In this document: positions 10,937 to 15,507 of the stretch, piece after piece
Position numbering within the stretch: the first letter of the stretch is position 1
Layout of the letters: each line of letters opens with the position of its first letter
IMG/VR virus record: IMGVR_UViG_3300042392_000200
Location: 1-30,039 of that record
Length of the DNA stretch: 30,039 nt
Reading direction: 5' to 3' (one strand)
From: a virus
Position numbers and translations under genes: made by a program
The notes under the pieces: generated by a model
Database searches by the model: none
Told to the model about the DNA's origin: nothing
What the model saw: only the letters and a program-made list of their open reading frames with translations

Positions 10937-11881
10937 TTAGTTTAGCATAGACTGTATTGATTTGTCAAACTGGAAGTCCAGTTCTTTAATTGACTTATCG
11001 TCCATGTCTCCTATATCTTTATATTCTTTGTTTAGTTTAATTACGGATACACGAGAACCAAGTTTTTCAACTATCTTAGTTCTCATATTTCCACCTGCTT
11101 CATCGTTATCCGCAATGACAATTATATCATTAAAGTACTTCTGAAGCAATTCTATTTGTATGTTTGATACATTGGACCCTAATGTTGCTACTGCTGGAAA
11201 GCCACACTGGTCAAGCCTAATAGCATCAAAGGATGACTCTACTATATAAACCTTACCAGAACTTTTAACTCTGTGTAGGTTAAATAGGGTTTTAGATTTT
11301 GGCAACCCTGGAGTATTCTTAAATTCTTTGCCCTCGATAGATCTTCCAACAAAACCAATTGCTAAACCATCTGGACTGTGGACTGGAACAGTTACCATAT
11401 CCTGTTTTTCTGAATAGCCTAAAGCAAATTTTGATGCTGACTCTTTAGTAATTTTTCTATAGTTAAAATAATCTCTTGCTCTGCTAGAAGACAGCAGTTC
11501 ATTGTGAAGTCTTTTAAGAACAACCTCGTCAAATAAAGTAAACTCTGGTTTTTTGTAAAGGGCTCTATCAACATCCTGTTCTATACTTGTTTCTGCTTCT
11601 TTGCTTTTAATAAACCTTGCAGCCTCAAAGTATGTCCTGTTAGACATATGCATAACAAATTCAATAAATCCAGTTACGTGGTGACAAGCAAAACAAAAGA
11701 AGGTTCCGCTATTCTTATCTATTTCTCCTGCTGGGGTTCTATTGTTGTTGTGATATGGACAAAAAATAATATAGTCTGAGTCAACCTCAGACTCAATCGT
11801 TACACCTGTTCCTGTGAGAACTCTTTTGATTTGTTCTTTTGTGTATAGATTGCCGTGCTTCCGTCTATTCCTGCTATCCAT
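10937..11881 (-). CDS. DNA primase (CHC2 zinc finger and Toprim)
   Basis: The 314 aa enzyme makes RNA primers for lagging-strand synthesis. The N-terminal zinc-binding domain shows CPYH (C41, H44) and CFAC (C63, C66). The Toprim domain shows the glutamate in VYIVESSFDA (E215) and the metal-binding DxD in VIADNDEAGG (D258, D260). It is shorter than bacterial DnaG (near 600 aa) and has no visible C-terminal helicase-binding domain, as in many phage primases. ATG 11881 is the only good start before the zinc finger and overlaps the upstream gene by 82 nt. It is separated by 24 nt from the SSB-like gene. Confidence 0.92.
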   Translation of the reverse strand: MDSRNRRKHGNLYTKEQIKRVLTGTGVTIESEVDSDYIIFCPYHNNNRTPAGEIDKNSGTFFCFACHHVTGFIEFVMHMSNRTYFEAARFIKSKEAETSIEQDVDRALYKKPEFTLFDEVVLKRLHNELLSSSRARDYFNYRKITKESASKFALGYSEKQDMVTVPVHSPDGLAIGFVGRSIEGKEFKNTPGLPKSKTLFNLHRVKSSGKVYIVESSFDAIRLDQCGFPAVATLGSNVSNIQIELLQKYFNDIIVIADNDEAGGNMRTKIVEKLGSRVSVIKLNKEYKDIGDMDDKSIKELDFQFDKSIQSMLN

Positions 11882-12153
11882 TCGCTTTGTTTTCTCCCCG
11901 TATATGTTCCGTGTACTGTTAGTTGAAATTCAAAATATTTTTTCTTGTGGTTATAGTCTATCGTAAAATCTGGAACTATGTCAAGCCTTGGAACGTAGCC
12001 TGATAGTCGCATCTCGGATTCAAGCAATCTGACATACTCTGCCTTAAGCCTACCAAGAGCAGACTCATCATGGATAATCCCGTCAAGATAAAACTTCTTG
12101 ATTGGCTTATGATGATAGAAGGTAGGTGGGATAACTTCTTTACTTTGCGACAT
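11800..12153 (-). CDS. Conserved phage protein between helicase and primase, function unknown
   Basis: The 117 aa product reads as a mixed alpha/beta protein: YHHKPIKKFYLDGIIHDESA (about 13-32), a helix LGRLKAEYVRLLESEMRLSGY, then strands PDFTIDYNHKKKYFEFQLTVHGTY and a C-terminal EWIAGIDGS...QKNKSKE. I recall related small proteins in actinophages with the same ending, so the 82 nt region that overlaps the primase start is probably genuine coding in both frames. No catalytic motif is seen. Its place between helicase and primase suggests a replication accessory role, possibly a helicase loader or primase partner; this is inference. There is no Shine-Dalgarno before the ATG; see the promoter candidate upstream. 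Confidence 0.75.
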   Translation of the reverse strand: MSQSKEVIPPTFYHHKPIKKFYLDGIIHDESALGRLKAEYVRLLESEMRLSGYVPRLDIVPDFTIDYNHKKKYFEFQLTVHGTYTGRKQSEWIAGIDGSTAIYTQKNKSKEFSQEQV

Positions 12154-12158
12154 ACCAT

Positions 12159-12164
12159 ATTATA
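12159..12164 (-). promoter_or_regulatory. Candidate -10 element for a leaderless transcript
   Basis: The minus strand reads GGTATAATA, then GGTATAAT's hexamer TATAAT ends 5 nt before ATG 12153. With a usual 6-7 nt distance to the start site, RNA would begin at or next to the ATG. The gene has no Shine-Dalgarno. No clear -35 is present. Leaderless mRNAs are common in Actinobacteria, and the same nonamer precedes ATG 15029. Confidence 0.35.
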
Positions 12165-12165
12165 C

Positions 12166-13386
12166 CTACTTATCTTCATAGTCTTTGTATCTGTAGTATC
12201 CTTTGTCAAAATCAACCTGGACAAGGAAGTCTCCCATAAATCCATTACGATTCTTTCTAAAGGCACATTCAATAATATCGCTGTTTGATGCTCTACCCAA
12301 AGCAATAACCCAGTCAGCATCGTAGGCAATCTGTCTTGACCAAGCAGTTTGTCCAAGCGTAGGAACACCACTGAGATCGTTCACATCATCTGGGGTAGCA
12401 GATGAGATAGCAATGATTGGAACCTCTTCACCAATAGCCATTAGTTTAAGTTCTCTTGAAAGGTTCTTCATTCGTACCGTTTCATTATCTGACTTCTGAT
12501 TAGGAGCCATTAACTGAAGGTAGTCAACAATTACAAAGTCTGGCTTGTATTGATCAATCTTTCCACGAAGAACAGAAGGATTAATTTCTCCACCTTGGTC
12601 ATTAGAAATAATATGAAACTCTGGCTTACCCTGTAAATGCTTAGCATGCCAAGCCTTAAGAGTATCTAGTTCAACATCTCCATTACTCAACTTGCGATGG
12701 GACCAAAGACCTTCGCCCATAATAGTAAATACACGATTACGAACTTCTGTTTCTGACATCTCAAGTGAGATTACAAGGGGTGTCCTACCCTGTTTCCAGG
12801 CCTGTACAGCGAAGTATAGAGCCATCCACGACTTTCCTATACCTGGGTATGCTAGAAAGACTCCTAACTGCCCTGGCATAATTCCAGAAGGAAGATAGTT
12901 GTCAAAGCCTGGAAGGTTTGTTTTAATTCCAACATGACCTGCTGCTTGCTGTACCTTTAAGTTTTCAAAGTAAGCAACTGCTGACTCAAGGTCAGTCACA
13001 TCAATGTCACGAATGGCTGCAGTATTTTTCTTTAACTCGGAGGTCTGTGTAATTAAATCATTTAAGGCAACTGAGCCTTGGTTGTTTTGAACATTGCCTG
13101 CTGCGGATCTTAGAATATCTTTTAGGCTATCATTCAAGTATTCCCCCTGTAACTCTTCAAGGTGATGTTTGGTTGCTCCTACATTTGCTATCGGAGCAAA
13201 GTCTCTAAACTTTTCTGTAACAAGTTCTGCAGGTGGAAGTGACTTATTATTTTCAAAGTATAGTCTTATAAAGTTCCAGATATCTCCGTGAGTCCTCAGA
13301 AGATTGTCAACATTGGCTTGTAATAATACGTGGATCTGTTTATCTTGAAGAACTGCAGTAATTAGTTTAGACTCTGTATTATTCAC
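12166..13386 (-). CDS. dnaB: Replicative DNA helicase (DnaB-type)
   Basis: The 406 aa hexameric helicase unwinds the fork for the phage polymerase. The RecA-fold motor has Walker A AYPGIGKSW (G182-S186), the catalytic Glu in VISLEMS (E209), Walker B FVIVDYLQLM (D288) and a later arginine-finger region ending FRKNRNGFMGDF. The N-terminal ~150 residues form the expected helical domain, including a sequence NNKSLPPAELVTEKF typical of phage DnaB-like proteins. The start is GTG 13386: GGAG lies 7 nt upstream and the codon overlaps the end of the preceding gene. No ATG starts the domain. It ends 12 nt before the 117 aa gene. Confidence 0.93.
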   Translation of the reverse strand: MNNTESKLITAVLQDKQIHVLLQANVDNLLRTHGDIWNFIRLYFENNKSLPPAELVTEKFRDFAPIANVGATKHHLEELQGEYLNDSLKDILRSAAGNVQNNQGSVALNDLITQTSELKKNTAAIRDIDVTDLESAVAYFENLKVQQAAGHVGIKTNLPGFDNYLPSGIMPGQLGVFLAYPGIGKSWMALYFAVQAWKQGRTPLVISLEMSETEVRNRVFTIMGEGLWSHRKLSNGDVELDTLKAWHAKHLQGKPEFHIISNDQGGEINPSVLRGKIDQYKPDFVIVDYLQLMAPNQKSDNETVRMKNLSRELKLMAIGEEVPIIAISSATPDDVNDLSGVPTLGQTAWSRQIAYDADWVIALGRASNSDIIECAFRKNRNGFMGDFLVQVDFDKGYYRYKDYEDK

Positions 13387-13906: not shown

Positions 13907-14449
13907 TTAAATGGACTCGCTCCAGATTGGAACGAACTGTCCGTCTTCTGTTCTCCTATATGTAAGTATACCATCGCCCATTCTTCGTGTCAACTCTTGC
14001 TTGCTGGGCGTAATATCATTAGTAATTAATTTATCTTTTCTTGGTCTACCAATATGGTGTGTAGCAAGTATATCACGAATGTCTCTTACCTGCGATTCTG
14101 AATAGTATGACCTTACCTGAAAACCTCTTGCACCACCTTTTTGAGATCCCATTGGAAAAGGAATAACGCCCCTTTTCATTAAGTCTGGCATATATTTTTT
14201 ATGACGATTAACTAAATCAGCAGTCTCTCTAACTGTGTATGCTCGTTCTCTTTTCTTTTTAAAATCACTAATTAAACAACTTTCAATTTGATCTTTTGTA
14301 ATATTATAAACAGACATAATACCATTAGATTTATTTAGGTGATAAACTCTAACAAGGTCTCCATTTAAGAACCAAACCTTTTTGTTCCCTGGAATTACAG
14401 GGAGGACATTGTAGCCTTCGCTCTCAATACTTCCTTTTTTAACAGCCAT
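13907..14449 (-). CDS. HTH DNA-binding protein (MerR/excisionase-like) with GRPR motif
   Basis: The 180 aa protein has an N-terminal strand-rich part (to about 60: VWFLNGDLVRVYHL), a basic linker FKKKRER, then a winged-HTH-like AYTVRETADLVNRHKKYMPDLMKRGVIPFP (about 70-99) followed by RSYYSESQVRDIRDIL (113-128), which resembles MerR/excisionase folds, and an AT-hook-like HHIGRPRKDK (131-140). It should bind DNA. A strong GGAGGGG site precedes ATG 14449, although that ATG lies 55 nt inside the previous zinc gene. It sits at the junction of tail and replication modules, so a regulator of the early genes or an origin-binding factor are both possible; neither is shown. Confidence 0.75.
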   Translation of the reverse strand: MAVKKGSIESEGYNVLPVIPGNKKVWFLNGDLVRVYHLNKSNGIMSVYNITKDQIESCLISDFKKKRERAYTVRETADLVNRHKKYMPDLMKRGVIPFPMGSQKGGARGFQVRSYYSESQVRDIRDILATHHIGRPRKDKLITNDITPSKQELTRRMGDGILTYRRTEDGQFVPIWSESI

Positions 14450-14586
14450 GACCCCTCCGCATAACTTTCTGGTGGATTATAAAAATTTCTTGATCCACAC
14501 ATCATACAGTAAGTTTCAAGATGTCCAATTGTACTGTATTGTCTGTCAAGAAACATTCTCCCATTACATTTTTTACATTTTAGCAT
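14395..14586 (-). CDS. Small zinc-ribbon protein
   Basis: The 63 aa product begins MLKCKKCNGRMFLDRQYST and then has YCMMCGSRNFYNP, giving a four-cysteine zinc ribbon (C4, C7, C27, C30) with the CxxCxG...CxxCG look of small transcription-factor-like ribbons. The ATG overlaps the preceding stop as TAATG. The last 55 nt overlap the HTH gene in another frame, so only the first 44 codons are coded alone. The zinc site lies entirely outside the overlap. Role unknown; adaptors of this kind often bind nucleic acid or RNA polymerase. Confidence 0.7.
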   Translation of the reverse strand: MLKCKKCNGRMFLDRQYSTIGHLETYCMMCGSRNFYNPPESYAEGSWLLKKEVLRAKATMSSL

Positions 14587-15029
14587 TAATTAGGTACGCC
14601 AATAATAATTAAGTTAACATCAATCGCTAGATCTCCAGATGTATTAAATTTTACAACACCTTCAAGTCCAGAAGTTGTTATGTTTTTTAAAACAATTGTA
14701 ACATTTTTACCAGCAACTGTATTTCCCGTATTGATTGCTGTTGCAGTTGCAATTGGAGCATACTTAAATTCTCCAGGAAAAGAATACGTAAAAGACTTTT
14801 CTTCTCCAGCAGTAATTGTTCCGCTACTTACTACACGAACATTACCACCAATGACTCTGGCCTCACTACCTTTAATATTTTGTCTACCAGCATTCGGGGT
14901 GTCAATTGATGTATACTTGTAAGTTGCTGGAGATATAGCAGAGGATAACTCATTAATCACTTGTGCTAATTGAGAAATATAAGTTACATCTAGTGGTTGC
15001 CCACGCTCAGGTAAAGGGATTTTTGCCAT
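14586..15029 (-). CDS. Minor virion protein with H-type lectin-like C-terminal domain
   Basis: The 147 aa product starts MAKIPLPERGQPLDVTYISQLAQVINELSSAISPATYKY, a helical oligomerisation-like head, then a strand-rich domain: VRVVSSGTITAGEEKSFTYSF (about 64-84), FKYAPIATATAIN and GVVKFNTSGDLAIDVNLIIIGVPN at the end. A short helix plus beta-rich trimer fits receptor-binding or decorating phage proteins with an H-lectin fold. I recall very similar proteins in phages of aquatic bacteria. It is the last tail-module gene. It starts 7 nt after the previous stop with no Shine-Dalgarno; a promoter candidate overlaps this gap. Confidence 0.6.
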   Translation of the reverse strand: MAKIPLPERGQPLDVTYISQLAQVINELSSAISPATYKYTSIDTPNAGRQNIKGSEARVIGGNVRVVSSGTITAGEEKSFTYSFPGEFKYAPIATATAINTGNTVAGKNVTIVLKNITTSGLEGVVKFNTSGDLAIDVNLIIIGVPN

Positions 15030-15035
15030 AATACT

Positions 15036-15044
15036 ATTATACCA
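15036..15044 (-). promoter_or_regulatory. Candidate extended -10 promoter, leaderless
   Basis: The minus strand reads TGGTATAATAGTATT then ATG 15029. TATAAT (15041-15036) has the TGn extension directly upstream and ends 6 nt before the ATG, the spacing expected for transcription starting at the A of the ATG. The gene has no ribosome site. The shared GGTATAATA also lies before ATG 12153. No good -35 is visible. It lies at the end of the tail module, so it could switch on the replication genes. Confidence 0.4.
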
Positions 15045-15507
15045 CTAGGCTTACTGGATCAGACTCAAAAAGTGTAGCCTTAATAAACCTTTGTTTGGGA
15101 AATGTCGGGACTTGAAGTGCAAACATTGCTGTATTGTATCCTGATGGAACTAAAATTGTGTATGAGGATGTCTGGATAGATGCAACATACTGAAAATCAT
15201 CTGTACCCCATTTAACATACAAATCAAAATCAGATTTTAAATTTGCTGGAGGAGCCCAGACAAGGTTAATAATTTCTTTGTTTGCGCTTGTCACTACAGA
15301 ATGTGAAATCCAAGGCTCTGGTGTTGGCAGCAATTCTCTATCTATTTCAGGCTCAACATTAATTTTATATCTTGGAGACCAATGAGAATTTCTATTTCTA
15401 TCTTCAGAAACTATTCTATATCTAACTAAATAATTTTGTAAGACTCCACTAAACGCTGGAAGATCTTGTTTTTTAATTATTACTTTTTTTACTATCGGGT
15501 TTGACAT
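15037..15507 (-). CDS. Tail/virion protein with fibronectin III-like fold
   Basis: The 156 aa product has a lysine-rich start (KKVIIKKQD), strands YLVRYRIVSEDRNRNSHWSPRYKINV (about 26-51), NLVWAPP and DFDLYVKWGTDDFQYVASIQ (about 93-112), and SSYTILVPSGYNTAMFALQVP near the end. Alternating short strands with Trp, Tyr and Pro residues read like an Ig/fibronectin-type domain common in tail tips and fibres. Its ATG forms TAATG with the fibre gene stop. I have seen the YRIVSEDRN pattern in minor tail proteins of similar phages. Role: probable tail-tip or fibre component, unproven. Confidence 0.6.
   Translation of the reverse strand: MSNPIVKKVIIKKQDLPAFSGVLQNYLVRYRIVSEDRNRNSHWSPRYKINVEPEIDRELLPTPEPWISHSVVTSANKEIINLVWAPPANLKSDFDLYVKWGTDDFQYVASIQTSSYTILVPSGYNTAMFALQVPTFPKQRFIKATLFESDPVSLVV

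Follow-up and report, generated by a model that had tools for sequence, protein, structure and literature searches.

An extended −10 element predicted to yield leaderless mRNA in a lineage of putative freshwater actinophages

An extended −10 promoter that would yield a leaderless mRNA for gene B, a predicted lectin-like fibre protein, is our preferred reading of the DNA preceding ATG 15029, and from the sequence comparisons described here we put its probability at about 0.9. The window, by which we mean the whole 30,039-nucleotide stretch analysed, is an entire 30-kb virus record and probably a genome fragment. The minus strand carries its main genes, which comprise tail genes, gene B, an HTH-like gene, a DnaB-like helicase, primase, SSB, DnaE polymerase, a recombinase, nucleases and terminase, with some of these names assigned from sequence and from synteny with the Streptomyces phage Comrade. 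This gene order supports the position that the first-pass annotation had given to the promoter, at the boundary between tail and replication genes.

The predicted promoter before gene B and its conservation

On the minus strand, the region reads CCTAG-TGG-TATAAT-AGTATT-ATG, with the TG at 15044..15043, the TATAAT at 15041..15036 and the start codon at 15029..15027 (Table 1). The TGN abuts the hexamer, the hexamer ends six nucleotides before the ATG, and no Shine-Dalgarno (SD) sequence lies between the two, a layout that had been described at first pass and is borne out by direct reading. SD-like tetramers occur at 13 of the 27 gene starts of the window, or about half. The TAA stop codon of the upstream gene falls inside the hexamer, 7 nt from the ATG. 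Since the N-terminus of gene B, MAKIPLPERG, is conserved in relatives, we take the start codon to be correct. Across the window as a whole the hexamer shows no enrichment, with 21 copies found against 29 expected, yet a TATAAT placed 5-6 nt ahead of any of the 27 gene starts is expected only 0.027 times, and the arrangement GGTATAATA-N2..6-ATG occurs twice against 0.02 expected from shuffles. It is therefore the placement of TATAAT that is improbable, an argument that the first-pass annotation had made and that these counts uphold.

Table 1. Coordinates of the promoter-like elements, genes and minor motifs discussed in the text
Feature	Position	Strand	Basis or remark
Extended −10 element TGGTATAAT	15044..15036	minus	Read from sequence; homologue conservation
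Spacer AGTATT, 6 nt	15030..15035	minus	Seventh base after the −10 is the A of ATG, the predicted +1
Gene B, 147 aa, N-terminal helix and beta-sandwich	14586..15029	minus	ORF; predicted structure
Upstream gene, 156 aa	15037..15507	minus	ORF
Second site GGTATAATA, candidate weaker leaderless promoter	12158..12166	minus	Sequence and conservation
Gene after the DnaB-like helicase, 117 aa, phrog_17515, function unknown	11800..12153	minus	ORF; PHROG match 8.9e-22
TTGACA-17-TATACT with TG	13993..13965	minus	Inside the end of the HTH-like gene; 11/12 consensus
Terminator-like stem AGTCTGAGGTTGACTCAGACT	11793..11773	minus	Inside the primase gene

To follow the element through related phages, we collected loci whose proteins resemble gene B, the helicase or a tail gene product, and the motif was not used for selection. 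TATAAT was invariant in all 86 distinct sequences upstream of gene B homologues, down to about 40% protein identity. The TG was kept in 95% of them, while the columns upstream of TGG drop to 34-62%. The distance from TATAAT to ATG was 6 nt in 52 sequences, 9 in 26, 5, 7 and 8 in one each, 15 in three and 16 in two, so that 81 of the 86 fall at 5-9 nt. None of these 81 carries an SD tetramer in the spacer, compared with five of the five at 15-16 nt (Fisher 3e-8); the gene B family thus has homologues in both leaderless-type and SD-led form. Irrespective of how far away the ATG lies, 91% of homologues have A as the seventh base after the hexamer, as do most of those with a spacer of 9, a pattern expected from a transcription start fixed at that base.

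We propose that TGN-TATAAT acts as an extended −10 promoter for a holoenzyme that would carry a housekeeping-type sigma factor; from the geometry, transcription is predicted to begin at the A of ATG 15029, the seventh base past the hexamer. The gene B mRNA would have no 5' leader, and the ribosome of the actinobacterial host would initiate at the 5'-terminal AUG without SD contact. Situated inside the tail-to-replication gene run, such a promoter would make transcription of gene B independent of upstream read-through, and the small genes after gene B may be transcribed from it as well. Transcripts from promoters further upstream could also cover the gene cluster; on these, gene B would be without an SD, and its translation would have to be coupled to the preceding stop codon.

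The alternative that survives best is a real promoter whose mRNA carries a short leader of 1-5 nt. It accommodates the distances of 7-9 nt, mostly 9, seen in about one-third of the homologues, and a +1 may fall 5-9 nt from a −10 element. The sharp peak at 6 nt and the A at the seventh base nevertheless favour the A of ATG as +1, making a short leader unlikely; its effect on translation would in any case be nearly the same as that of a leaderless start.

Translational coupling would instead make TAATAGTATTATG a stop-start junction, at which gene B is reinitiated after the upstream gene and the promoter-like string is incidental, as the TAA within the motif of the window might suggest. Among the relatives, however, the upstream stop lies at +2 (58 sequences), −6 (22) or elsewhere (6; −7, −9, −25, −29) relative to a hexamer that stays invariant, so conservation of the motif is not due to the stop. 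In some gene B homologues, moreover, 15-16 nt separate the motif from the ATG, with an SD in between, and the motif precedes dozens of unrelated genes in the near-complete relatives. On the moving stop, the homologue comparisons and the permuted-hexamer comparison given below, we rejected stop-codon coupling, which we regard as very improbable.

Leaderless-type sites across nine related genomes

Nine near-complete relatives of 98-119 kb were scanned in segments, and sites were counted without gene calling, a start being an ATG that opens at least 40 codons at a given distance, d, from TGNTATAAT. Such an ATG stands at exactly d=6 for 70 of 234 TGNTATAAT sites, compared with 3 of 1568 sites for 19 permuted hexamers (Fisher 1.6e-62). 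Because the nine genomes share ancestry, their sites do not make independent counts, and a tally of families is the more cautious measure: the 147 leaderless-type sites fall into at least 45 protein families, 25 of which occur in at least two genomes, and these families include dioxygenase-like, methyltransferase-like, ferritin-like and cement-protein-like genes. The d=6 peak is common to the near-consensus variants TATACT (22 sites), TATGAT (9) and GATAAT (7), and none was found in the nine relatives for TATATT, CATAAT or TATAAA. Start codons at d=6 comprised 70 ATG, two GTG and one TTG, and the d=6 sites of the nine genomes have no conserved −35 column, in keeping with an extended −10 promoter, which can largely or wholly dispense with a −35.

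Distances of 10-14 nt are sparse in the nine relatives, with four sites, and a second mode lies at about 15-30 nt. There, an SD tetramer accompanies 45 of 70 sites, as against 1 of 99 at d=4-9 (Fisher 1e-21). At the d=9 sites the seventh base is a purine in ten of ten cases, as for a +1 with a 3-nt leader. Further d=6 and d=7 sites occur in contig G011 (50.7 kb), whose gene B and helicase proteins are identical to those of the window. Enrichment of the motif before start codons in full genomes, with SD sites lacking there, was the check that the first-pass annotation had proposed, and the relatives pass it; the homologue and genome-scale comparisons together support its claim of an extended −10 element with a leaderless start, the exact +1 being predicted from geometry. 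In the related phages, dozens of genes would then have the leaderless layout, alongside a second promoter class with a leader and an SD.

These counts also bear on the idea of an A/U-rich ribosome-binding element, for example one for protein S1, which would act in RNA and not as a promoter. The motif is A/T-rich and keeps a fixed distance to ATG in most homologues, as such an element might. Permuted orders of the same six letters nonetheless produce no peak, a TG accompanies the motif two bases upstream, and the motif recurs with SD sites at 15-30 nt. We rejected the A/U-rich element on the permuted-hexamer and homologue results, and we hold it to be marginally less probable even than coupling. 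Chance placement, with which the lack of TATAAT enrichment in the window would agree, is refuted by the placement statistics, the homologue conservation and the genome-scale peak, and its probability is negligible.

The split between leaderless and SD-led genes might constitute a regulatory programme, with one class favoured at a given time of infection, although we consider this a long shot. If it were true, the phage would time its genes at translation as well as at transcription, and the trigger could be, for instance, intact 70S ribosomes or altered initiation-factor levels that favour 5'-AUG starts.

Very short ORFs of about 41-60 aa, several with CxxC pairs, also follow the TGNTATAAT-N6-ATG layout in the nine relatives (L211-L262); one example, MIENRPQDKCHYCDKPGDY, is found in seven genomes. 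Gene finders may overlook such short leaderless-type ORFs. A multi-copy family of small proteins, about 130 aa in length, accounts for 22 sites in eight genomes, with a leaderless-type promoter for each copy.

Host and comparison with known systems

An actinobacterial host had been guessed at first pass, and the relatives lend support to this assignment. WhiB, described as confined to Actinobacteriota and as a key marker by which actinophages can be recognised (PMC10202952), is encoded in nine of the nine near-complete relatives; none was found in the partial window. The best helicase and tail-protein matches are to Streptomyces phages, and the nearest named phages are the Streptomyces phages of Stanwilliamsviridae, with a helicase about 38% identical. 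The low GC content of 34-41% would suit low-GC freshwater actinobacteria as host, and the virus probably infects lake and river actinobacteria. A WhiB scan of genome contigs for a host returned one match, CANGYR010000020.1 (L272), which comes from a metagenome and is binned as Chitinophagaceae. It encodes a phage-type WhiB, 80% identical, and is probably a mis-binned phage contig.

Comrade, a member of Stanwilliamsviridae, has the same replication order as the window: helicase, small gene, primase, SSB, DnaE, recombinase, Cas4-like exonuclease, RuvC-like gene and terminase. Unlike in the relatives, its extended −10 elements form no peak at d=6, and the phage collection contains nothing that matches gene B. 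As controls, in which the numbers are small, Comrade (NC_048728; 47% GC) had 0 of 4 extended sites at d=6 and showed no peak when the pattern was relaxed, and Bacillus phage SPO1 (40% GC, 100 kb) had 1 of 10, indicating that the layout is neither a mere by-product of low GC nor general to the phage family.

The leaderless mechanism itself is already known, both from TA-led genes and from mycobacteriophage Corndog. TA-led leaderless genes make up on average about 19% of genes in Actinobacteria (Zheng et al. 2011, PMC3160421). Like the sites described here, they have TANNNT about 10-12 bp ahead of the start codon and no SD; several low-GC genomes show a TG peak before the hexamer, and the initiation type can switch between related genes (PMC3160421). 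They are known from bacterial and archaeal genomes (PMC3160421), whereas the present sites belong to a phage lineage and have a near-consensus TATAAT with a sharp 6-nt spacing. In mycobacteria, an RTG at +1 was found to be necessary and sufficient for leaderless initiation, AUG or GUG at +1 directing it, and leadered and leaderless promoters share the −10 (PMC4633059). Those starts were measured by TSS mapping and ribosome profiling (PMC4633059), whereas ours are predicted from sequence and are nearly all ATG. The cluster O mycobacteriophages such as Corndog have two predicted leaderless promoters, PL1 and PR2, which likewise belong to phages of actinobacteria and have +1 at the opening base of the start codon (PMC4351075); against these two stand at least 45 gene families across our nine relatives.

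In the open-access literature we found this one precedent for leaderless actinophage genes, with few promoters per genome and no genome-wide class, and earlier reports may exist elsewhere. What the present comparisons appear to add is a phage lineage whose leaderless genes make up a class that spans the genome, next to SD-led genes, and one family that occurs in both states. In uncultured freshwater actinophages, which are abundant, the rule would let promoters and start codons be read from sequence, including those of very short genes that SD-dependent gene finders would misplace. The gene B family provides a ready set for testing evolutionary switching of initiation type.

Gene B, the second site and minor motifs

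Searches of PHROGs and Pfam, and of the phage collection by tblastn, returned nothing for gene B, and the fold comparison was the one informative approach. An AlphaFold2 model built from 23 homologues reached a pLDDT of 75.8. By Foldseek, the model matched the R1 pyocin fibre, with E=3.7e-5 for 6cl5, as well as Helix pomatia agglutinin, with E=2e-4; E values for these matches ranged from 4e-5 to 4e-4. From this modelled fold, gene B is likely to be a lectin-like tail-fibre tip.

Before ATG 12153, the sequence reads GG-TATAAT-ATGGT-ATG, with a 5-nt spacer. This is the same nonamer as at gene B, without the TG, as the first-pass annotation had noted correctly. The TATAAT is present in 46 of 46 distinct homologous sequences and is kept also where the end of the preceding gene differs (L043, L053, L059, L155); the bases preceding it are coding and conserved anyway. 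The site departs from the extended −10 form, with AGG or AGT in place of TGN and an A at −3 in 46 of 46. We saw no −35-like hexamer here by eye, and the 5-nt spacing is rare, occurring at 1 of 234 extended sites in the nine relatives. The second site is less certain owing to the missing TG and the rare spacing, and from its sequence we lean only slightly towards a leaderless promoter. As a recurrence of the first site it is conserved, but its lack of a TG and a visible −35 and its unusual spacing mean that it does not count as an independent repeat.

The TTGACA-17-TATACT match (Table 1) is conserved in 72 of 86 relatives; as it lies within conserved coding sequence, it provides no independent evidence. 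For the 95-aa ORF listed from ATG 13974, the later codon that opens MENEDTKVS is more likely the true start. Matches like the terminator-like stem occur in numbers at chance level. Lastly, TGCTATACT precedes ATG 5207, the start of the Cas4-like gene on the minus strand, by 24 nt, forming a candidate leadered promoter, and it recurs in the near-identical contig G011 (L279).
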